64,000 nt of DNA from Olleya aquimaris (GTDB lineage Bacteria; Bacteroidota; Bacteroidia; Flavobacteriales; Flavobacteriaceae), in NCBI RefSeq assembly GCF_003259525.1, contig NZ_QLLO01000006.1, positions 62,001 to 126,000 on the forward strand. The letters are read 5' to 3'. The notes under the pieces were generated by a model. That model was not told the origin of the DNA and did not search any database. It saw nothing but the letters and a program-made list of their open reading frames with translations. Positions 1,844 through 10,811 of the stretch are shown piece after piece (the first letter of the stretch is position 1; each line of letters opens with the position of its first letter). The position numbers and the translations under genes were made by a program.

Positions 1844-3808
1844 ATGTCGATCAATACTCTAGTAAAAAAAAGACAACTTGCCTGTATCATGTTTACAGAC
1901 ATAGTTGGCTATACTTCTTTAATGGCTAAGGATGAAGGTCTGGCGCTTAAAACTCTAGACGAAAACAGATTGATTCATCGTACAATCATCAAAAAATATG
2001 ATGGCGAATTTATAAAAGAACTTGGTGATGGTGTTTTAGCTATTTTTTCTACTGCTACAGATGCTGTATCTGCTGCTGCAGAAATACATCTTGCAACTAA
2101 ACTTAATGCACATCTTAATATTAGAATCGGGCTTCATCTAAGCGAAATAATTTATGAGAATGGTGATATTTTTGGAGATGGTGTTAACATTGCCTCTAGA
2201 GTAGAACCTAAAGCGCCTTCTGGTGGCACTTATATTACGCAAGCTGTACAAAGCAATCTTTACAATAAAAAAGGAATTAATACAGAATATGTTGGTGAAC
2301 TGAGTTTTAAAAACGTTGCTCAAGACATGAAAATATACCAAGTCTTAGTTACCGACGATTTTGAAAGCATAGTCAATATTCAAGCAGATGCTTTTAATTT
2401 TAATAATAACGACGCCCTTAAAAAAAGCATAGCTGTGATGCCTTTTTTAAATATGACTGCAGATCCTGATCAAGATTACTTCTGTGAAGGGATTGCTGAG
2501 GATATTTTAATCATACTTTCTAATGTAAAAGATTTAAAAATTGTAGGTAGAAGCTCTTCGTTTCAGTTTAAAAATAGTGAGCTTTCACAAAAAGAAATTG
2601 GTGCCATACTTAATGTAAACCATATTTTAGAAGGTAGCGTGAGAAGAAGTGGTAATAGACTTAGAATTAATGCCCATTTAATTAATATTACAGAAAACAG
2701 ACAGATTTGGGCAGAACGTTATGACCGAGAATTAACAGATATTTTTGAAATACAAGATGATATTGCCTCTAAAATTTCAAAAAAACTTAAAGTTACTTTA
2801 TTAGATAATACTAAAAAGGTAAACCCAGTAAATATGGAAGCTTATGAAATGCTTCTAAAAGGACGATATTACGAAGACAAATTTATTCAAGGTTTTGATA
2901 AGGCTTTGACCTGTTATACCAGAGCTATAGAACTTGAGCCAGATTACGCAGAAGCTTATTCTGCATTGGCTAATATTCATTTTTTATATACCATGTATTT
3001 AATTCATCCACCCAGAGATGGATTTAAAAGAGCGCAACATTACGCAAACAAAGCGTTGTCTATTAATAACGAAATAGCTGAAGCACATTTTTTAATTGGT
3101 CAGATTAATTTCTGGCATCATTGGGACTTTCATGCTGCAAAAGAGCAATATATAAAAGCAACACAAGCTAGTGTTCCGTTTTACTTTACTGGTGTAACTA
3201 TGGACCCTTGGTACTATGCATTTGTTGAAGGCGATTATGAAAAAGCTGTAAATACAACCCTAACAATAATGGAAACCAATCCATTATCCTATTTTTACCA
3301 GTTTTTACTAAGCTGTTATTACACTTGGGGAAGACAACCACACAAAGCTAGAGAAGTTTTAAATAACCTATTATTAGCAATCCCAAATCACTCGGACGCA
3401 CAACGTTTATTAGCCTATAATAGTTTACTGGAAAATGATAGCGAAAGAGCAATTACCGAAGCTAGAAAAGCTGTAGAGTTGGCACATGGTTTAGGATGGT
3501 CTCAAATAACATTAAGTATTGCTTTAGCACAACATGGCGATAAAGAGGAAGCCTTTACCATATTAAATAATTTACAGTCTAATCAAGACCAAGTAAATAT
3601 TTCGCCTTTAGGCATAGGACTTATATATACTTATTTAAACGATTTTGACAATGCCTTTTTATACTTAAACAAAGCTATAGTTTATAAAGATATTTGGATG
3701 GTTTCCTTAAAATATGGACCAGAATTTGACCCATTAAGAAGCGACCCAAGATTTGACTTGCTACTAGAGCAAATAGGCTATCCAGAAGTATACCACAATC
3801 AATTGTAA
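1844..3808 (+). CDS. Class III adenylate/guanylate cyclase with FlgO/TolB-N-like domain and TPR repeats
   Basis: A 654-residue soluble signalling protein. Residues about 10-170 form a class III nucleotide cyclase domain with the full catalytic set by position: metal Asp19 (FTDIVGYT) and Asp62 (ELGDG), Lys58 and Asp108 as purine-selecting residues (Lys/Asp favours ATP), and Asn115/Arg119 of the VNIASR transition-state motif. Residues about 190-315 match the FlgO/TolB-N type domain seen in such fusions (SIAVMPFLNMTADPDQDYF, HILEGSVRRSG, IWAERYDREL). From about 325 to the end there are several TPR units. No membrane segment or signal peptide is visible. Probably makes cAMP in response to a ligand or partner bound by the C-terminal half; the substrate is inferred, not shown. 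The gene may be cotranscribed with the catalase-like gene 27 bases downstream. Confidence 0.88.
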   Translation: MSINTLVKKRQLACIMFTDIVGYTSLMAKDEGLALKTLDENRLIHRTIIKKYDGEFIKELGDGVLAIFSTATDAVSAAAEIHLATKLNAHLNIRIGLHLSEIIYENGDIFGDGVNIASRVEPKAPSGGTYITQAVQSNLYNKKGINTEYVGELSFKNVAQDMKIYQVLVTDDFESIVNIQADAFNFNNNDALKKSIAVMPFLNMTADPDQDYFCEGIAEDILIILSNVKDLKIVGRSSSFQFKNSELSQKEIGAILNVNHILEGSVRRSGNRLRINAHLINITENRQIWAERYDRELTDIFEIQDDIASKISKKLKVTLLDNTKKVNPVNMEAYEMLLKGRYYEDKFIQGFDKALTCYTRAIELEPDYAEAYSALANIHFLYTMYLIHPPRDGFKRAQHYANKALSINNEIAEAHFLIGQINFWHHWDFHAAKEQYIKATQASVPFYFTGVTMDPWYYAFVEGDYEKAVNTTLTIMETNPLSYFYQFLLSCYYTWGRQPHKAREVLNNLLLAIPNHSDAQRLLAYNSLLENDSERAITEARKAVELAHGLGWSQITLSIALAQHGDKEEAFTILNNLQSNQDQVNISPLGIGLIYTYLNDFDNAFLYLNKAIVYKDIWMVSLKYGPEFDPLRSDPRFDLLLEQIGYPEVYHNQL

Positions 3809-3835
3809 AACCTACAATTGTTAAACTTTATAACT

Positions 3836-5401
3836 ATGACAAAACGACCAACCAGCCCATTAACATTAGGACAAGAGTATGTGTCTGCAGATGAAGATGA
3901 AATCATTAAAGAAATGATTGATGAGATGGAAGCACAAATGGACCGTTTGTATGCTGACCAAAAGATGCCTCGTCAAATTCATACCAAAATGCATGGTTGT
4001 GTTAAGGCTAAATTTATAGTTGAACCACATTTAGAGAACACTCTAAAAGTTGGAGTATTTAAAGACCCTAAAACCTATAACTGTTGGGTACGTTTTTCAA
4101 ACTCGCAAACCAAACCACAAAACGATAAAAAGAAAGATATTAGAGGGATTGCCATTAAGCTAATGGGTGTTACTGGTGAAAAGATTTTAAATCACAAAAA
4201 ACAGGAAACATCTCATGATTTTTTATTGATGAGTAGCGAGACTTTTTTTTCTAAAAACATCAAAGAGTTTAGAGGTACACTTAAAGCCTCTACTGCTAAA
4301 AGTAAATTAAAACTAGCCTTATATTTTTTAAACCCAAAACATTGGAGCATCTTAAAAAGATTGATGGGAACTTTTGTTAAGTGTGACAACCCTTTAAACA
4401 TTCCATATTGGAGTACGCAACCCTATCGGTTTGGAGCAAATGATAAAGCAGTAAAATATTTTTTAAAACCTTCACCTGAAAACAAAATAGTTAACGAAAA
4501 CACAAAAGAACCAAACTATCTTAGAATTAATATGGCGCAAACATTAAATGATAACTGTATAAAGTTTGATTTTTTTGTTCAGTTTCAAACAAATGCTACT
4601 ACCATGCCAATTGAAGACCCAACTGTCCCTTGGGATTCTCAGTATATTAAGCTAGCAACTTTAGAAATCCCACCACAACATTTTGATTCTAAAAAACAAA
4701 TAGAATTTGGAGAAAACTTATCGTTTAACAGCTGGCATGCCTTACCAGAACACAGACCTTTAGGCAGTTTTAATCGAGCTAGAAAACGGGTTTACGATTA
4801 CATGTCAAGCTATCGCCATAAACAAAATGGAATTCCAGAAATTGAACCAGAAGATGACCCTAATTTTTTATTGGACACCTTTCATGAAAACATGAACATT
4901 ATAAATGTTGACATTCCAAAACAAAAGGTGGTTAGTCAATCTGCGCATGTATTAGTAAAATGCTCTAAAAAAATTGCATTTGATTTTATTTCAAGTGGTA
5001 CAGAATTGCCTAATTGGTTAAAAAAACACGGTTCTATTCCTGCTGCAATTAATGCTGAAAAAATATCTGAAACTTATGATTATATAGGAGCAAAACGAAG
5101 AGTACGATTTGATAATAATGAAACGACTATTGAAGAGTTGTTAAGCTATAATCCTAATGCAAATTATTCTTATCGTGTTACCGAGTTTACCAATAAATTA
5201 AGACATTTTTCTAATGTAGCTTATGGACAGGTTTGGATAGATACCATTGATGACAAAACTAGAATTACTTGGGACTATACGTTTAAGTATAAAAATTTAT
5301 TTTCTAAAATAATGCTCAGCTTCGTATTAACCTTTGTGTTTAAAAAATTTATGCAAGAAAGTCTAAATCATGCCAAAGCATATATAGAAAATGGCGATTA
5401 G
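3836..5401 (+). CDS. Catalase-like heme protein fused to a C-terminal SRPBCC domain
   Basis: A 521-residue two-domain protein. Residues about 45-325 match the small catalase-related heme proteins (y4iL-like group): distal His49 in QIHTKMHG, WVRFSNS, DIRGIAIKL, HDFLLMSSETF, the long VPWDSQYIKLATLEIP block, and PEHRPLGSFNRARKRVY, where Arg316-x3-Tyr320 fits the RxxxY proximal heme ligand. The usual catalase distal-Asn segment is replaced by HDFLLMSS, so true catalase activity is doubtful; relatives of this fold include coral allene oxide synthase, which acts on fatty acid hydroperoxides. Residues about 362-521 look like an SRPBCC (polyketide-cyclase-type) lipid-binding domain. I chose ATG 3836 over the upstream in-frame TTG at 3818 because it avoids hugging the previous stop and gives a normal N-terminus. 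No signal peptide. Confidence 0.85.
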   Translation: MTKRPTSPLTLGQEYVSADEDEIIKEMIDEMEAQMDRLYADQKMPRQIHTKMHGCVKAKFIVEPHLENTLKVGVFKDPKTYNCWVRFSNSQTKPQNDKKKDIRGIAIKLMGVTGEKILNHKKQETSHDFLLMSSETFFSKNIKEFRGTLKASTAKSKLKLALYFLNPKHWSILKRLMGTFVKCDNPLNIPYWSTQPYRFGANDKAVKYFLKPSPENKIVNENTKEPNYLRINMAQTLNDNCIKFDFFVQFQTNATTMPIEDPTVPWDSQYIKLATLEIPPQHFDSKKQIEFGENLSFNSWHALPEHRPLGSFNRARKRVYDYMSSYRHKQNGIPEIEPEDDPNFLLDTFHENMNIINVDIPKQKVVSQSAHVLVKCSKKIAFDFISSGTELPNWLKKHGSIPAAINAEKISETYDYIGAKRRVRFDNNETTIEELLSYNPNANYSYRVTEFTNKLRHFSNVAYGQVWIDTIDDKTRITWDYTFKYKNLFSKIMLSFVLTFVFKKFMQESLNHAKAYIENGD

Positions 5402-5476
5402 CCTACTACTACTTATTTTCAATTTTTATGATCGTAATTTTTTACCTAACTTACTTTAAATTAAACCATTAAACCT

Positions 5477-6367
5477 ATGACTTTATCAATTTCAGAATCC
5501 ATAAATCTGAAAGCCATTTTTTCGTTTAAATCTTTATTGTGGAAACTCTTCGGAGTTACTTTTGCAGTTATTGCTATCAAAGGTTTTATGATACCTAATC
5601 ATTTTCTTGATGGTGGTTTGTTAGGGATTTCTATATTAATCCATGAATTTTATCATATTAATGTGGGTTACCCTTTGATTATTTTAAATATTCCGTTTGT
5701 TATTCTTGGATATAAAAAAATAGGTAAAAATTTTGCTGTACATTCTTTATTATCGTTGTTGTTTCTTGGAATAATAATTAGTTTTTTACCTGTACCCACA
5801 GTTACAAACGATCATTTTTTGACTGCGGTCTTTGGTGGTGTTTTTGTAGGACTTGGTATTGGTTTTGTTATTAGAGGTGGAGGCGTTATTGATGGACTAG
5901 AAGTGCTTGCAGATTACACCTACAAAGAGTTTGGTTTTAGTACTTCAGAAATTATTATAGCTATCAACACTATTGTATTTTTAATCATCGCCTTTTTTCT
6001 TGGTTTAGAAAAAGCAATGTATTCTATCCTAACATTTTTTACTGCTGTAAAGGTGTCTGATTATGTAGTTGATGGTTTTGAAAAAATGATATCCCTTAGT
6101 ATTATTTCTCCAAACCCAGAACAAATAAAAAGTTTAATTGTTAACGATTTTAATAAAGCCATAACAGTATATAAAGGAGAACGAGGAAATTTACCAGGAT
6201 CTTATGGTATAAAACACGATTGTGATATTATAGTTACTGTTGTAACTAGATTAGAAGCTCATAAAATAAAAAAGACTATTAAAGCTTTAGACCCAAAAGC
6301 CTTTATGTATGTGCAAAATATTAAAGAAGTTGGTGGTGGTATAACTAGCAAAAAAAGCCATCATTAA
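5477..6367 (+). CDS. YitT family membrane protein (DUF161/DUF2179)
   Basis: A 296-residue integral membrane protein with about five or six hydrophobic segments between residues 20 and 205 (the first begins near SLLWKLFGVTFAVIAIKGF), followed by a soluble C-terminal DUF2179-type domain with the ITVYKGERG motif. The signature PNHFLDGGLLGISIL and the GGGVIDGLEVLA segment place it in the YitT family, of unknown transport or regulatory function. Another member lies at 30266-31189 in this window. The HD hydrolase follows after only 2 bases, so the two genes are probably one operon. Confidence 0.9.
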   Translation: MTLSISESINLKAIFSFKSLLWKLFGVTFAVIAIKGFMIPNHFLDGGLLGISILIHEFYHINVGYPLIILNIPFVILGYKKIGKNFAVHSLLSLLFLGIIISFLPVPTVTNDHFLTAVFGGVFVGLGIGFVIRGGGVIDGLEVLADYTYKEFGFSTSEIIIAINTIVFLIIAFFLGLEKAMYSILTFFTAVKVSDYVVDGFEKMISLSIISPNPEQIKSLIVNDFNKAITVYKGERGNLPGSYGIKHDCDIIVTVVTRLEAHKIKKTIKALDPKAFMYVQNIKEVGGGITSKKSHH

Positions 6368-6369
6368 AC

Positions 6370-6954
6370 ATGTTTAAAGAGTTTAAAAATTTACACACCC
6401 ATGTTGTAACGCTGTTAGACACAAATCTACCTAGTTATTTATCATACCATGATACTAAACATACCTTGTATGTTTTAGACAAAGCAATCTATATTGCTAA
6501 CAAAGAAGGTATCACTAAAAATGACCTCTGCTTATTAAAAATCGCTGCTTTGTTTCATGATATTGGATATATAAAAGCTTATGATAATCATGAAGAGGAA
6601 AGCATAAAAATTGCTAAAAAAGAATTACAAAACTTTAGTATTTCTAATGATGATATTGAAGTTATATGTAATATGATAAGAGCGACCAAAATTCCTCAAC
6701 ACCCAAAAACTAAATTAGATATGATACTAGCAGATGCCGATTTAGAATATCTTTCTACCAACAATTTTAAAGTTTTTGGAGATTTATTGTTTGAAGAATT
6801 AAAGCATCTTAATCCAAAACTAACTAGGCAAGAATGGAATGCAACTCAAATTTCGTTTTTAAAAAACCATCAGTATCATACTACCTATTGTAAACGTTAT
6901 AAAGAACATAGAAAACAAAAAAACTTAGACTACTTAATAGCAAGTCACTTATAA
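6370..6954 (+). CDS. HD domain phosphohydrolase
   Basis: A 194-residue cytosolic protein with the HD metal-binding signature: YHDTKHTLYVLDKA (first His), AALFHDIGYI (the His-Asp pair near residues 65-66), a downstream NHEEESIKIA segment, and LDMILADADL with the C-terminal Asp. HD enzymes hydrolyse phosphate esters or phosphoanhydrides of nucleotides; the small stand-alone form gives no substrate clue. It follows the YitT gene by 2 bases. Its 3' end overlaps the convergent DyP peroxidase gene by 6 bases, so transcription must end inside or beyond the opposite gene. Confidence 0.85.
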   Translation: MFKEFKNLHTHVVTLLDTNLPSYLSYHDTKHTLYVLDKAIYIANKEGITKNDLCLLKIAALFHDIGYIKAYDNHEEESIKIAKKELQNFSISNDDIEVICNMIRATKIPQHPKTKLDMILADADLEYLSTNNFKVFGDLLFEELKHLNPKLTRQEWNATQISFLKNHQYHTTYCKRYKEHRKQKNLDYLIASHL

Positions 6955-8370
6955 ACTACAGATATAACGAATAGTAGTAATTGAAGGAAAGAAAAAATAA
7001 GCACCTCCTCTAATGGTTACAAAACGCTTTAAGTTTTTTACCGTTTTATTAATAGGGTCACCTTGTAATGTAAACTGTTGTTCTTGACCTTTTTCTGGGT
7101 TTTCCACCACTCCAATAATAGGATCTGGATCGCTATACAATTGTTTAATTTTAGGATAATTGGACCAAGTGTATTGTAAGAATTCAAACTGTCTACTAAT
7201 ATCTGCACTAAAGCAATTAAAATACAACCCTACTTCTCCTTTGGGTTTGTTATTAGTTGGTGACCCAATTATAGGGTCGCCATATAATCTTGCACGACGT
7301 ATTAATCTATGTCTATTACTTAGAAGCAAGGATTTTTTTGGTGTATCCATTTCAAAATTATCTCTAGGATTCATACGTCTTAAATGCGATCCAAATGGAC
7401 ATTTTAGTCCTTTAGGGTCGTCTTTTGCGTATAAAAAATCATTTTCATTACTAACGCCTCCTGGATCTTTATCAGGAAATTTAGAAAGTGGCGCACCACT
7501 AGGCCATCTTCCAACCATTTTTGAGGCTAGCTTGACACTTTCGGCTTGATTTAACGTTCCATTTTTATCTGCAGTACAATCATTCATAAAATTCCAAAAG
7601 CCTTCAACATCTTGTTGCATTTGTCGAATTATCAGATAACTTCCATTTTTTCCTAAATCTTTTTGTCCAGGTCTTGCTGGATTAGGAGCTAACAAGTTTA
7701 AATTACCTTGAGGTTCTAAAATGGTTGGAGAATCTGGATATACTTTATAATTATTTTTATAACCTAAAATAAATTCGCCTGGATTAACTGTATTATGCTC
7801 TGGTCCTATCCTTCCACTACCTTTTATATTGGGTTGTGCAATTCCATCTCTAAAACCAAAATGCTCTTTATTGTCCTTTAATGACAATCCATCCAAATTT
7901 TTTTGCACTTCTAATCCATGAGATTCAAACCCTGTTTTTAACGTATTATAATACTCTAAACAGGTGTTTTCGTCTTTACCAAAGGTTAACAAAACAAGGT
8001 GTACTGGCTCGTTATTTAATCCTCCCCAAATCCATTTTTCAGGCGAACTACTATCAATATCGCCTAACAAGCTTCTTCTGTGTTCTGTCGTCATGCCTTC
8101 CTTAAAAGGAGGAGAAAACGTATTGATATTGGTTTGTGATAGTCCTAATGTATTAAGTCCTGCTGGTGCAAAAGCTATATTTAAACAGGTATCTGGTAGT
8201 TGATCTTTAGGTACAATGGAGGCATTAGTCAATTGGTTACTAATTGAATTAATCCATGTTTTAGCTGCAACTGGGTCATTAACTTTTAATAGTGAAAACC
8301 TAGAGAATTGCATATTTCCATAGGCTCTAATAATATAACCTTGTACGTCTTCTAGTTCTATTGTATCCAT
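6949..8370 (-). CDS. DyP-type heme peroxidase
   Basis: A 473-residue dye-decolorizing-type peroxidase. Diagnostic residues are present: the GFRDG motif with catalytic Asp175 (HFGFRDGIAQP), the proximal heme His329 in CPFGSHLRRMNPRD, a distal Arg in the HRLIRRARLYG segment and the C-terminal RGGAYFFFPSI block. Length is typical of the larger bacterial and fungal DyP classes. There is no Tat or Sec signal peptide, so it is probably cytosolic or held at the membrane by a partner. It is the last gene of a tight operon (patatin-like lipase, duplicated-domain membrane protein, DyP; gaps of 2 and 5 bases). Family chemistry is H2O2-dependent oxidation of aromatic or lipid-like substrates; the substrate here is unknown. 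Confidence 0.93.
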   Translation of the reverse strand: MDTIELEDVQGYIIRAYGNMQFSRFSLLKVNDPVAAKTWINSISNQLTNASIVPKDQLPDTCLNIAFAPAGLNTLGLSQTNINTFSPPFKEGMTTEHRRSLLGDIDSSSPEKWIWGGLNNEPVHLVLLTFGKDENTCLEYYNTLKTGFESHGLEVQKNLDGLSLKDNKEHFGFRDGIAQPNIKGSGRIGPEHNTVNPGEFILGYKNNYKVYPDSPTILEPQGNLNLLAPNPARPGQKDLGKNGSYLIIRQMQQDVEGFWNFMNDCTADKNGTLNQAESVKLASKMVGRWPSGAPLSKFPDKDPGGVSNENDFLYAKDDPKGLKCPFGSHLRRMNPRDNFEMDTPKKSLLLSNRHRLIRRARLYGDPIIGSPTNNKPKGEVGLYFNCFSADISRQFEFLQYTWSNYPKIKQLYSDPDPIIGVVENPEKGQEQQFTLQGDPINKTVKNLKRFVTIRGGAYFFFPSITTIRYICSL

Positions 8371-8375
8371 TGTTA

Positions 8376-9707
8376 TTATATTAGTTCAAAAAGTTTTTGT
8401 GCTTTTTTATTGTTAAGGTATTTAGAAAACATCACTCTAATTTGAGAATTGTTATTTACATTTTTTATGGACAAACTTGGGTAAGCAGAATACCAAATTT
8501 GAGTTGATAATTCTGTAGATCTACTCCAAGCCAAAAAATGTTCTTCGTCATAAGCTCCACCAGTTAACAAAAATCTAGTTTTAGGAAACACTTTTGTATT
8601 AGAAAAAATCCCTGTAAGTCCCCAACCACTTTGATCTATAAAGTCGCCTAAATACTGTTGCCAACTACCATCAAAATTGCTAAAAAACAGGACGCGTTTA
8701 TTATCATCAAATAATACCCAACGTGCAAAATGTATGGTTGGGATTCCCATTAACTCGCCATCTACAAATTTTATAGGAATTAAAGTTTTTGCAAACAACA
8801 TCATAGCCTTAAAAGTTATTAATCGGACTTTACCAGGTTTCATTTCTACTAATTGCGAAAACTGGTTTTGATAATTAATCTGCTTGTCCTTGACTATGTT
8901 TCCATTAGAATTAATTTGATTTAAATCTTCTCCACTAGTTAAATCTTCATACTCTTCAAGCACCTTTATTTTTCTAGGATCCAGTTGGCTTCTGGTTTTT
9001 GTGAAATATTCGTCTTTACGCTCATAGCCAAACTCGACAATCAATATCCAAATAATAATTACAGGTAATAATAGCAGTAATACTAGCACCAATAAAACAA
9101 ACTTAAACCAATTCATTTTAGGCATTTTATAAGTGTCTTTTAACCATTCAAACCTTGGTCCAGTTTGTTTGACTTCTTTTTTTAATTGTTTATGTATTTG
9201 ATTGGCAGTTAACCCATCCCAATTTTTTGTGTCTAATTGTTGTCTTAAAAACATCCTTAAATCTTGTTCTTGTCTAATTTGCATAAGACTTCTACCAGGA
9301 CTTCCTCTGTAAAAGGCAGATGCTTTAATCATCCATTGTTTTAAATAGTCTGTTCTAGTTTTTAGGTTTCTATTGCCTTCTTTAGGATAATCTATACAAC
9401 AAGAATAAATTTCATCTATTAAAAGATGTTCCATATCGCCACATAAATCTTTTAAATGGTGTTCTATACTACCATCAAAATTAGAGGAAAATACTAGCTT
9501 TGGTGGTAAAGTTGTACCTTCAAAAAACACACTGTTTTTGTCATCAATAATCAACCATCTTAGGTAATGGATGTTATTAGATTTTTCAAATAATTCATGT
9601 TGACCCTTTTCAAGCTTATATTTCATGTCAGAAAGAAGCTTGTATAGCTGCCCTATTTTTTCAGGAATAATTGGTGTGATGAGCGTTAATGGATTTTGCT
9701 GACTCAT
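8376..9707 (-). CDS. Unrecognised membrane protein with internally duplicated domain, partner of DyP and patatin
   Basis: A 443-residue protein with one strong transmembrane segment at about residues 203-225, dividing it into two soluble halves. Both halves carry the same motif: IHYLRWLIIDD ... FSSNFDGSIEHHLKDL at about 46-87 and IHFARWVLFDD ... FFSNFDGSWQQYLGDF at about 325-356. This indicates an internal duplication, or a two-fold arrangement across the membrane segment. The repeated H-x3-RW and SNFDGS residues are candidates for a ligand or heme-access site. I do not recognise a named family. It sits 2 bases from the patatin gene and 5 bases from the DyP gene, so a joint function is likely, perhaps docking both enzymes at the membrane. 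Confidence 0.75.
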   Translation of the reverse strand: MSQQNPLTLITPIIPEKIGQLYKLLSDMKYKLEKGQHELFEKSNNIHYLRWLIIDDKNSVFFEGTTLPPKLVFSSNFDGSIEHHLKDLCGDMEHLLIDEIYSCCIDYPKEGNRNLKTRTDYLKQWMIKASAFYRGSPGRSLMQIRQEQDLRMFLRQQLDTKNWDGLTANQIHKQLKKEVKQTGPRFEWLKDTYKMPKMNWFKFVLLVLVLLLLLPVIIIWILIVEFGYERKDEYFTKTRSQLDPRKIKVLEEYEDLTSGEDLNQINSNGNIVKDKQINYQNQFSQLVEMKPGKVRLITFKAMMLFAKTLIPIKFVDGELMGIPTIHFARWVLFDDNKRVLFFSNFDGSWQQYLGDFIDQSGWGLTGIFSNTKVFPKTRFLLTGGAYDEEHFLAWSRSTELSTQIWYSAYPSLSIKNVNNNSQIRVMFSKYLNNKKAQKLFELI

Positions 9708-9709
9708 TT

Positions 9710-10702
9710 TTACGTTGGTTGTTGGTTGGCTTGTTGTGCTTTTTTAAATTCAAAATATCTAATAGCTCCTGCTCTTCCGGAATTAACAAGATTGGTTTTT
9801 TCTTGATCTGAAAGGTTGAAATTTGTAGCAGAAATTCCTAAATCGTCAATAAAAATGGTACGATCCACTAAATGACTTTCTTCAAATAAATCAACATCTT
9901 GAGAGTTTAAAAGCGTTTCAAACAAATGCTTGATATACAAGAATATCCACATGCCATATTTAAATTCTACTCTGTAAATTAATTTTTTAATTCCGTGTTT
10001 TTTTTCGGTAGCTAAATTGGCATCTTCTAGATTTTCATTACGTTCATAAATCTTCTTAGGCTCTAAAAACAATCCTAAAGATTCTTGATGGTATTCTATT
10101 TGATTATTATGAAATCGTGGTTTATCAAAAAAGGACAATGGGTAATTAAACATAACTCCTCCATCAACATAAATATGATTGTTAGGTATGCCATTAGAAA
10201 ATTGCCACCCTTTAAAAAATAACGGAATGGACATAGAAGCACGAATAGCTTCTGCAACTATACATTTAGGAGTTTTGTAATAGGAAAACTCGCAAATATT
10301 ATGTGTATTAAGGTCTGATGCAAAAACAATAATATCTTTACAACCTGCATTATGAAAATCTTCAAACGTCGCCTCTTTAGTGAGTCCTTTAGATGAAGCT
10401 TCGTAGCATTTATAAATAAATTTTAAAATTTCGTCACCACTATATAGTCCATATTTAGTAAAAATCCGCAGAGGATTCCAACCGCTTTTAAAAGCTTTAA
10501 AATTAAGCTTACGCATTAAATCTTCTATAGTTGTGGGAGATAATTGCAAGGCTATCATTAATGCTACAATAGCACCTGCTGAGGTACCAGAGACACGCTC
10601 TAAACCTTTGTAGATGCCAGCTTTATCTAATTCTTTTAAAGCTCCGACGTAAGCGATACCCTTAACACCTCCACCTTTAAGGGCTAAATTCTTGATATAC
10701 AT
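9710..10702 (-). CDS. Patatin-like phospholipase
   Basis: A 330-residue patatin-fold lipid acyl hydrolase. The oxyanion-hole motif GGGVKG is at residues 10-15, the nucleophile elbow GTSAG puts the catalytic Ser at 41, and the dyad Asp is at 180 in VDGGV. SMSIPLFF at about 156-163 is also typical of patatins. There is no signal peptide or secretion barrel, so it is intracellular, unlike the T5 patatins. It is the first gene of a three-gene operon with the duplicated-domain membrane protein and the DyP peroxidase. By family knowledge it would release free fatty acids from membrane lipids, which would supply possible substrates to the neighbouring heme enzymes; that link is inference. Confidence 0.92.
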   Translation of the reverse strand: MYIKNLALKGGGVKGIAYVGALKELDKAGIYKGLERVSGTSAGAIVALMIALQLSPTTIEDLMRKLNFKAFKSGWNPLRIFTKYGLYSGDEILKFIYKCYEASSKGLTKEATFEDFHNAGCKDIIVFASDLNTHNICEFSYYKTPKCIVAEAIRASMSIPLFFKGWQFSNGIPNNHIYVDGGVMFNYPLSFFDKPRFHNNQIEYHQESLGLFLEPKKIYERNENLEDANLATEKKHGIKKLIYRVEFKYGMWIFLYIKHLFETLLNSQDVDLFEESHLVDRTIFIDDLGISATNFNLSDQEKTNLVNSGRAGAIRYFEFKKAQQANQQPT

Positions 10703-10763: not shown

Positions 10764-10811
10764 AAACATGGTAAAACCCCTTTAAATTATAAAAAGGAGC
10801 TTACCATGTTT
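10764..10811 (-). terminator. Intrinsic terminator
   Basis: An 11-bp inverted repeat (AAACATGGTAA at 10764-10774 and TTACCATGTTT at 10801-10811) encloses partly paired purine/pyrimidine arms. Read on the minus strand it is followed by a T-rich run (10756-10766), as expected for a terminator of the minus-strand gene that ends at 10839. It also separates that gene from the patatin operon. Confidence 0.8.

Follow-up and report, generated by a model that had tools for sequence, protein, structure and literature searches.

A recurrent gene module joining a membrane protein with two modelled barrel halves, a DyP-type peroxidase and a second heme partner, possibly acting on lipids

A 64,000-nucleotide stretch of the Olleya aquimaris genome (contig NZ_QLLO01000006.1, positions 62,001 to 126,000; hereafter the window) carries genes for a nucleotide cyclase, two heme proteins, a lipase and a membrane protein, whose features are collected in Table 1. 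We refer to the 443-aa membrane protein as MP443 and to the fusion of a catalase-related heme protein with an SRPBCC domain as catS. An earlier, sequence-based reading of the locus (the original prediction) had proposed that catS, a patatin, MP443 and a DyP-type peroxidase form an oxylipin-like gene set. The gene identities given there were borne out by the open reading frames (ORFs) and Pfam, the catalase-like part being identified via MAP-2744c, and the gaps of 5 and 2 bases in the patatin-MP443-DyP run agreed with the ORF coordinates.

Table 1. Features of the locus, in window coordinates
Feature	Position	Strand	Basis or remark
Class III nucleotide cyclase with TPR repeats	1844..3808	+	PF00211 49.5 bits plus TPRs; probable regulator
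catS, catalase-related heme protein fused to SRPBCC, 521 aa	3836..5401	+	ORF calls, Pfam, model
catS catalase-fold (y4iL-like) domain, residues 1-345	3836..4870	+	Arg46, distal His49, Arg103, proximal Arg316...Tyr320
catS SRPBCC (Polyketide_cyc2) hydrophobic-ligand domain	4943..5389	+	PF10604 34.4 bits, E 3e-8
YitT-family membrane protein	5477..6367	+	Pfam
HD-domain protein	6370..6954	+	Pfam
DyP-type peroxidase, 473 aa	6949..8370	-	DyP_N 35.2 bits, Dyp_perox_C 29.4 bits
MP443, 443 aa, two barrel halves around hydrophobic helix	8376..9707	-	model, hhalign
MP443 hydrophobic helix, residues 199-227, with Pro215; proposed re-entrant membrane anchor	9027..9113	-	
Patatin-like lipase, 330 aa, first gene of patatin-MP443-DyP run	9710..10702	-	PF01734 109 bits

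The SRPBCC, DyP_N, Dyp_perox_C and patatin matches of the window proteins all exceeded their Pfam cut-offs. The patatin carries GTSAG (GxSxG) and DGG in its translation, and the DyP has GFRDG, the proximal His in CPFGSHLRRMNPRD and the distal Arg in RHRLIRRARLYG, as in the DyP-type family; among 35 aligned DyPs, the Asp of GxxDG was replaced by Glu only in L018 and L028. The nearest solved structure to the window DyP was the Deinococcus radiodurans DyP (8RE3, E 1.7e-49). The catalase-like part of catS matched no Pfam or NCBIfam family, and MP443, searched against both collections to E 0.1, matched nothing and belongs to no named ABM/cyclase sequence family. The start codon of catS was called as ATG 3836 or TTG 3818, the ATG lying 27 bases past the cyclase stop codon, and an inverted repeat (caattgta-aaacc-tacaattg, window 3800-3820) overlaps that stop codon just 5' of catS. 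Upstream of the patatin, between it and a 122-aa gene, lies a hairpin (aacatggtaa...ttaccatgtt) followed by a T run (window 10765-10810, minus strand), which looks like a terminator by eye and was absent from the pattern-scan output.

Scanning species genomes with MP443 gave 33 loci, nearly all from Bacteroidota (L006-L038), which together with the window and L103-L105 from a family sample made up a first set of 37; ten mostly distant loci from a second family brought the total to 47. Repeated rows were left out (L001-L005, L039, L072, L106, L108-L110, L146 and L147, duplicating the window, L006, L038, L007, L010, L009, L017 and L024), and L016 and L025 double as the loci of G815 and G816. A DyP gene lay directly 3' of MP443 on the same strand in 46 of the 47 loci (45/46 excluding the window), the exception being L022, which stops at a contig edge; in L033 the DyP is broken. 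A chance neighbourhood was rejected, since the MP443-DyP pair recurs in this way. A catalase-related gene was present in 31 loci, 17 SRPBCC-fused (counting L029, which shows just the SRPBCC end at a contig edge) and 14 short, and it adjoined DyP in 22 of these loci (a 78-aa ORF intervening in L016); in L138-L142 and L144 the MP443, DyP and catalase genes make up a single same-strand run, overlapping or nearly touching. Seven loci (L023, L026, L036, L037, L103, L105 and L145; L036 is cut) carried a GST-P450 fusion of about 700 aa (L023:5820-7931, L103:6410-8512), and a catalase-related gene and GST-P450 were found together in 0/47 loci. Neither heme partner was present in nine loci; on the DyP side, five of them run into a contig edge (L011, L012, L022, L032 and L038) and four do not (L018, L034, L104 and L136).

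Around this core, further genes recur at lower frequency. Patatin was found in 17/47 loci, 14 times upstream of MP443 and three times after DyP, not counting weak matches off the core (26-39 bits; L021, L027, L033); it is thus optional. The suggested link with a cyclase was supported in that a cyclase-type gene occurred in 28/47 loci, 8 of the window's 654-aa type and 20 of a ~1,700-aa type, the latter counted by whole-protein match, with the cyclase end beyond the covered DNA in several loci. Domains of the ~1,700-aa type were assigned by Pfam in L031 (kinase, AAA, GAF and cyclase), and the cyclase end was also seen by alignment in G815-G817. In the first set, 22 of 23 catalase loci had a cyclase-type gene, directly beside the catalase gene in 16. 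A SnoaL-like protein was detected by profile near the catalase gene in 6/7 short-catalase loci of the first set and in 0/16 fused loci (SnoaL Pfam over cut-off in L031, L027 and L032), which suggests that a separate SnoaL-like protein takes the place of the SRPBCC domain. The exchange is not a clean one: the fused locus L010 has a SnoaL_2 gene beside the cyclase that the SnoaL profile did not match, and only one of the seven short forms of the second set (L137) had a SnoaL-like neighbour. In L014, L028, L031 and L033, SIR2-TIR and nSTAND genes are divergent from the short catalase gene (Pfam in L031; clustering in the rest). An ABA4-like membrane gene follows the core of the P450 version in L023 (Pfam) and in L026 and L037 (clustering). 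An FAD oxidase-like gene (FAD_binding_4 plus ALO) is convergent to the MP443-DyP-catalase run in three distant loci (L139:12150-14069, L142:11292-13262, L144:11741-13645) and is a possible source of H2O2.

In the window, catS and the patatin-MP443-DyP run are on opposite strands and are separated by the YitT and HD genes. That the two halves belong together, as the original prediction held, is supported by the catalase genes beside DyP, by the six tight same-strand runs and by the genome-wide co-occurrence described below. Of the 47 loci, 5 have YitT, which stands between the halves in three (window, L006, L007) and next to the module elsewhere in two (L015, L034), and 4 have HD (window, L006, L015, L034); a YitT-then-HD pair lies at window 5477-6954, L015:6334-7815 and L034:1168-2630, in lineages far removed from one another. 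Since the two genes split the halves only in the window and its close relatives L006 and (YitT alone) L007, they were left out of the module, although L015 and L034 suggest that there may be an occasional link. Overall, the module is an MP443-DyP core whose usual partner is a catalase-related protein or a P450, with patatin, SRPBCC or SnoaL, and a class III cyclase as frequent additions.

Because L006-L038 were selected on MP443 patterns, they cannot tell how often the partners occur without MP443, and this frequency was taken from family samples; a phylum sample, with MP443 in 1/395 genomes (the window itself), was uninformative. MP443 was present in 8/397 Flavobacteriaceae genomes, and SRPBCC-fused catS was found in 5/8 genomes with MP443 vs 0/389 without, where the linked count may be 4/8 because in G046 the catS part and patatin are on contig L107 and MP443, branching with another group, is on L038, so that they may come from different sets. 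In the second family MP443 was present in 12/93 genomes (14 loci), and y4iL-type catalase domains not of LodA size occurred in 10/12 genomes with MP443 vs 0/68 without, the catalase profile having been run on 80/93 genomes (all 12 with and 68/81 without MP443). Matches in 8/68 genomes without MP443 comprised two ORFs of 1,056-1,077 aa (classed by LodA-fusion length, not by domain scan), five SRPBCC-only proteins and one true catalase (21.6 bits). The family-sample searches scored only part of the first-look candidates in each genome and may have missed some, and the Fisher values treat genomes as independent, though they are related; with that said, the co-occurrence of the core and its partners is far beyond chance. 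Among 99 relatives, DyP at >=52% identity was found only in the three MP443 genomes, with one 30% match elsewhere, and GST-P450 was found in 2/9 MP443 genomes tested, being absent from six catS genomes and G619. Pairwise distances among four module proteins correlated (r 0.88-0.96), which in part reflects species kinship. On a quick tree of 46 MP443 proteins (L145, split in two ORFs, left out; placement of the long branches L136, L137, L034 and L140 unsure), the partner switched between catalase and P450 at least three times, and the SRPBCC-fused forms sat in one supported group, which also includes L011 and the short form L015.

The linkage extends well beyond Bacteroidota. MP443-like proteins were found in 22 plasmid records, 21 from Alphaproteobacteria genera and one from Rhodococcus. 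In L168 (Pararhizobium), L169 (Novosphingobium) and L171 (Sulfitobacter), P450, MP443-like and DyP parts are joined in that order in a single polypeptide; in L168 the gene directly upstream encodes a class III cyclase with TPRs. MP443-DyP fusions are encoded in L173 and L174 (Rhizobium leguminosarum), and in L172 (Skermanella) MP443-like, DyP and P450 are three consecutive genes. Around the plasmid-borne Rhizobium MP443-DyP genes of L170, L173 and L174 there are genes for phospholipase D-like proteins, trypsin-like peptidases, CHAT proteins or nucleases. Deinococcus radiodurans has three consecutive genes, encoding an MP443-like protein of 243 aa (E 5e-15; a single barrel that matches the C half of MP443 only), then DyP, the very protein crystallised as 8RE2/8RE3, and then a y4iL-type catalase; no patatin or cyclase is named in 9 kb around this trio. 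A 3-hydroxyacyl-CoA dehydrogenase gene (L188:794-1684) lies upstream of it on the same strand, a hint of fatty-acid metabolism. The predicted linkage, checked across genomes, is thus conserved for MP443, DyP and catalase and is found in very different bacteria; from this and the co-occurrence above, MP443 and DyP with a second heme partner almost certainly constitute a conserved functional module.

Catalases of the y4iL type were also followed on their own in 124 plasmid records, of which 14 places were inspected together with flanks of 4-7 kb; in 4/14, Deinococcus among them, the catalase has a heme peroxidase or RoxA-like heme protein as its neighbour. On pNGR234a the sole y4iL-type match, which shares 38% identity with catS over 337 aa (E 1e-63), is presumably y4iL itself, the gene table being without a gene name; RoxA-like heme proteins flank it on both sides, and a patatin-like gene (PF01734 26.0 bits, cut-off 27.7) stands further on. 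In Methylobacterium currus an animal-haem-peroxidase gene precedes the y4iL-type catalase, and in Paracoccus yeei a 'peroxidase family' gene (annotation only) follows it. An FdhF/YdeP oxidoreductase gene comes directly after the catalase in L181, L183 and L187, on plasmids of three different classes. We also observed y4iL-like domains fused to LodA-type quinoprotein oxidases (L063:3461-6679, L067:5900-8986; L064-L066 similar), with LodA_N and LodA_C found in the scanned L063 and L067 and an FAD protein gene directly downstream in L063; catalase-related/LodA fusions are already published, according to a passage in PMC4417212. All five fused domains (L063-L067) have Phe at the distal His position, so they may not be ordinary catalases.

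MP443 is modelled (mean pLDDT, the model's own confidence score, 83.7) as two dimeric alpha+beta barrel halves of an ABM/SchA-like fold in one chain, flanking the helix at ~199-227. The halves are homologous by hhalign (N half vs C half, probability 99.2%, E 2e-19), which bears out the duplicated soluble domains that had been predicted. By VIA-align the model fitted WhiE-ORFI (9lmn; Z 14.9, root-mean-square deviation 4.1, 223 aligned) and Abx(+)O (9ltx; Z 11.6); for the cyclases TcmI and OAC the fit was weak (Z no higher than 5.1), and the best Foldseek E was just 1.2e-3. There is one hydrophobic segment, around residues 199-227, in which a central proline is common, and since the modelled packing puts both halves on one side of the membrane, this segment is more likely re-entrant than spanning. 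Invariant residues among 46 sequences are confined to the C half and the preceding linker (E254, N281, K290, R295, P323, H326, A328, W330, F341, F345, D346, Y352, D355, F356, D358, P375, R396, W405 and Y406), which we read as a conserved site for either catalysis or DyP docking. PMC6689052 describes an ABM-superfamily protein with a non-catalytic fidelity role, and on this precedent MP443 may have a docking or chaperone role. The 'membrane docking protein' of the original prediction is plausible as to docking, but MP443 may itself be catalytic.

The structure prediction proposed for catS yielded a catalase fold and a Bet v 1/PYL-type second domain (pLDDT 86.1), with the aromatase/cyclase (ARO/CYC) fold also among the structure matches of the latter. 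The nearest entry in the Protein Data Bank (PDB) to the catalase-like part was MAP-2744c (3e4w; E 6e-11 by family profile), and the modelled domain resembled MAP-2744c (3e4y, Z 22.9), coral allene oxide synthase (cAOS; 3dy5, Z 22.4) and true catalases (Z 21-22) about equally, placing catS in the y4iL-like catalase-related family by sequence and fold. The fusion is thus real, yet it is not a general trait of the module, being one lineage's version whose relatives have a SnoaL-like protein or neither. The pocket residues in Table 1 are retained in the alignment, and across 30 catalase-related sequences the distal His is present in 29 (Glu in L015) and the proximal Tyr in all 30. By sequence alignment alone, the window protein has Ser where the distal Asn would be, and of 14 short forms 6 have Asn there and 8 another residue. 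Thr66 is a distal residue of cAOS according to a passage in PMC5617202, whose reference list includes a title stating that mutation of the distal Asn alters rate and not chemistry. With Thr66 in 0/30 sequences, catS was ruled out as a cAOS member, and with Ser at the distal Asn in the window, allene oxide synthase activity cannot be read from the sequence; the allene-oxide-synthase-like part of the original prediction was not supported. The pocket suits a peroxidase or a hydroperoxide-transforming enzyme, without proving an allene oxide synthase.

We propose that DyP and the second heme enzyme form a relay at the membrane surface that processes a hydrophobic, probably lipid-derived substrate, a view whose probability we put just under the halfway mark. 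In this relay, patatin would cut an acyl chain, which may already be oxidised, out of the membrane, and MP443 would sit on the cytoplasmic face via its re-entrant helix, its double barrel holding the hydrophobic substrate beside DyP. DyP, itself of barrel fold, would use peroxide to produce a radical or peroxidised intermediate, or would reduce one. Catalase-related and P450 enzymes can use hydroperoxides without external electrons, and the catalase-related domain or P450 would rearrange or reduce the intermediate of DyP; SRPBCC or SnoaL would then bind or cyclise the product, and the cyclase would couple the module to a cyclic-nucleotide signal, giving overall an oxylipin-like relay built without lipoxygenase. 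The membrane location is suggested by the hydrophobic helix of MP443, the signalling role by the cyclase genes, and the lipid substrate by patatin, the membrane anchor, the ligand-binding domains and the pairing of heme enzymes in Nostoc and fungal dioxygenase systems described in passages of PMC13049297. The fatty-acid or hydroperoxide substrate of the original prediction is accordingly supported by analogy only, through patatin and the Nostoc lyase of the same source. Lipid oxidation as the chemistry of the module is, in our estimate, marginally less probable than some other chemistry. The full reading, a widespread and undescribed oxylipin-type signalling module in which a membrane-held DyP oxidises a lipid, an interchangeable catalase-related protein or P450 finishes the product and a cyclic nucleotide exerts control, is a tentative and rather doubtful proposal.

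Several observations weigh against this oxylipin-like relay. No patatin was seen in 30/47 loci, some of them cut. Directly before the distal His, all 30 sequences have Ile, Val, Ala or Phe (Ile in the window) and never Thr, and the position of the distal Asn in 16 SRPBCC-fused forms is Ser in 14, Thr in 1 and Asn in 1 (L020); with Thr66 absent and Ser or Thr in 15/16 fused forms, plain peroxidase chemistry fits equally. The P450 partner keeps the ordinary E-T-T and heme-loop motifs in 6/6 full-length sequences. Catalases of the y4iL type also occur without MP443, as two stand-alone genes in G118, on plasmids, and as LodA fusions or LodA-size ORFs in the Flavobacteriaceae sample, and at 10/14 inspected places no heme peroxidase was seen next door, the gene tables being incomplete. 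Finally, the D. radiodurans DyP was reported, in a passage of PMC10820274, as inactive at physiological pH with H2O2/ABTS.

An alternative that we hold to be unlikely, though the most probable of the rivals, is repair of membrane lipid peroxides, in which patatin cuts out oxidised chains, their hydroperoxides are converted to alcohols by DyP acting with the catalase-related protein or P450, and MP443 serves as anchor with no signal molecule involved. MAP-2744c, the nearest solved relative of catS, is an organic-peroxide peroxidase; catS keeps His, Arg and Tyr with a catalase-like Ile/Val adjoining the His, and D. radiodurans has the trio. However, the module is rare and patchy in both family samples, unlike housekeeping repair; repair would also leave the catalase-type/P450-type exchange and the SRPBCC or SnoaL proteins unexplained, and patatin is optional. 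A general defence against H2O2, with DyP and catS removing it and neighbours brought together by chance or shared regulation, is very unlikely: both proteins do belong to peroxide-using heme families, and LodA-type oxidases, producers of H2O2, can carry a fused catalase-related domain as well (as stated in a passage of PMC4417212), but the constant element is MP443, which is fused to DyP and P450 in Alphaproteobacteria, and the genome-wide association is difficult to reconcile with chance.

The cyclase-type folds of MP443, SRPBCC and SnoaL could instead point to a pathway in which DyP, P450 and catalase serve as oxidants that tailor a hydrophobic metabolite resembling a pigment or polyketide, for example an aryl polyene or a carotenoid. 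The good fit of MP443 to WhiE-ORFI and the decarboxylase Abx(+)O, weak as it is to TcmI and OAC, would agree with this, as would the exchange of SRPBCC for SnoaL, the ABA4-like gene after the P450 version in three loci, and the oxidation of beta-carotene by some DyPs mentioned in PMC10820274. Nevertheless, no recurring polyketide synthase or carotenoid gene was noticed, though most flanking ORFs are unannotated, and the recurring lipid hydrolase, where present, is a patatin; we regard tailoring as improbable. Still less probable is an immune or conflict module, in which, on the pattern of CBASS or Pycsar, a cyclic-nucleotide signal would unleash patatin or the oxidative enzymes as an effector that damages the membrane. 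The window does combine a class III cyclase with patatin, SIR2-TIR and nSTAND genes stand beside short catalase genes, and trypsin-like peptidase, PLD, CHAT and nuclease genes are near some Rhizobium versions; yet SIR2-TIR/nSTAND-type genes were noticed in just 4/47 loci. CBASS/Pycsar membership was rejected by score: the patatin reached 44.7 against the CBASS lipase cut-off of 200 bits, and the match to PycC was 20 bits.

What DyPs do in the cell, and on which substrates they act in nature, is described as unclear in PMC10820274. The module gives a concrete lead on their natural role, in that one DyP clade has a constant membrane partner and a second heme partner of two unrelated folds; together with the one-chain fusions, this makes the role testable in a tractable host, D. 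radiodurans, whose DyP structure is solved and whose two neighbour genes are highlighted here. Catalase-related and P450 allene oxide synthases are unrelated, occurring in corals and in plants and fungi, respectively (passage in PMC5617202). If the product were an oxidised lipid, catalase-related and P450 hydroperoxide chemistry would thus be swapped beside one oxidant, and if the oxylipin-type signalling module were true, it would provide a natural pathway for this DyP clade, including the crystallised D. radiodurans enzyme.

A description of the module was not found in the literature by title or start of abstract, most subscription journals being outside the search. Among known systems, y4iL and MAP-2744c are similar to catS in sequence and fold, MAP-2744c being the top structural match, and the y4iL-type gene of pNGR234a is near a patatin-like gene as in the window; catS differs in its C-terminal SRPBCC and in having DyP-MP443 rather than RoxA-like heme proteins as partner. 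The coral AOS-LOX shares with catS the catalase-fold heme domain, the distal His and the proximal Tyr, whereas catS is without Thr66, has Ser at the distal Asn in the window, and carries a fused SRPBCC instead of a lipoxygenase domain; a search of 9 genomes yielded no lipoxygenase, although the positive control matched in none of them either. The closest solved DyP, that of D. radiodurans, has its gene flanked by genes for a one-barrel MP443-like protein and a y4iL-type catalase, and the words catalase and operon are absent from the searched passages of its structure paper (PMC10820274). With WhiE-ORFI and Abx(+)O, which are DABB/ABM-type, MP443 shares two modelled dimeric alpha+beta barrels in one chain; it differs in the hydrophobic helix between the barrels, in having no Pfam match and in that no polyketide cluster was noticed. 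The nearest parallels in design are fatty-acid dioxygenase systems described in passages of PMC13049297. In Nostoc, a separate catalase-related hydroperoxide lyase acts on the product of a fatty-acid dioxygenase (10S-DOX), and in fungi a heme dioxygenase is served by a fused P450 (DOX-P450). The oxidant there is a cyclooxygenase-type peroxidase acting on fatty acids, whereas that of the module is a DyP, and its core adds a membrane double-barrel protein. Like the module, both combine a heme oxidant with a catalase-related or P450 partner; the P450 shares one chain with the oxidant in fungal DOX-P450 as in the alphaproteobacterial fusions, and the HEC in the heme loop of the fungal 9-AOS is also present in the module P450.

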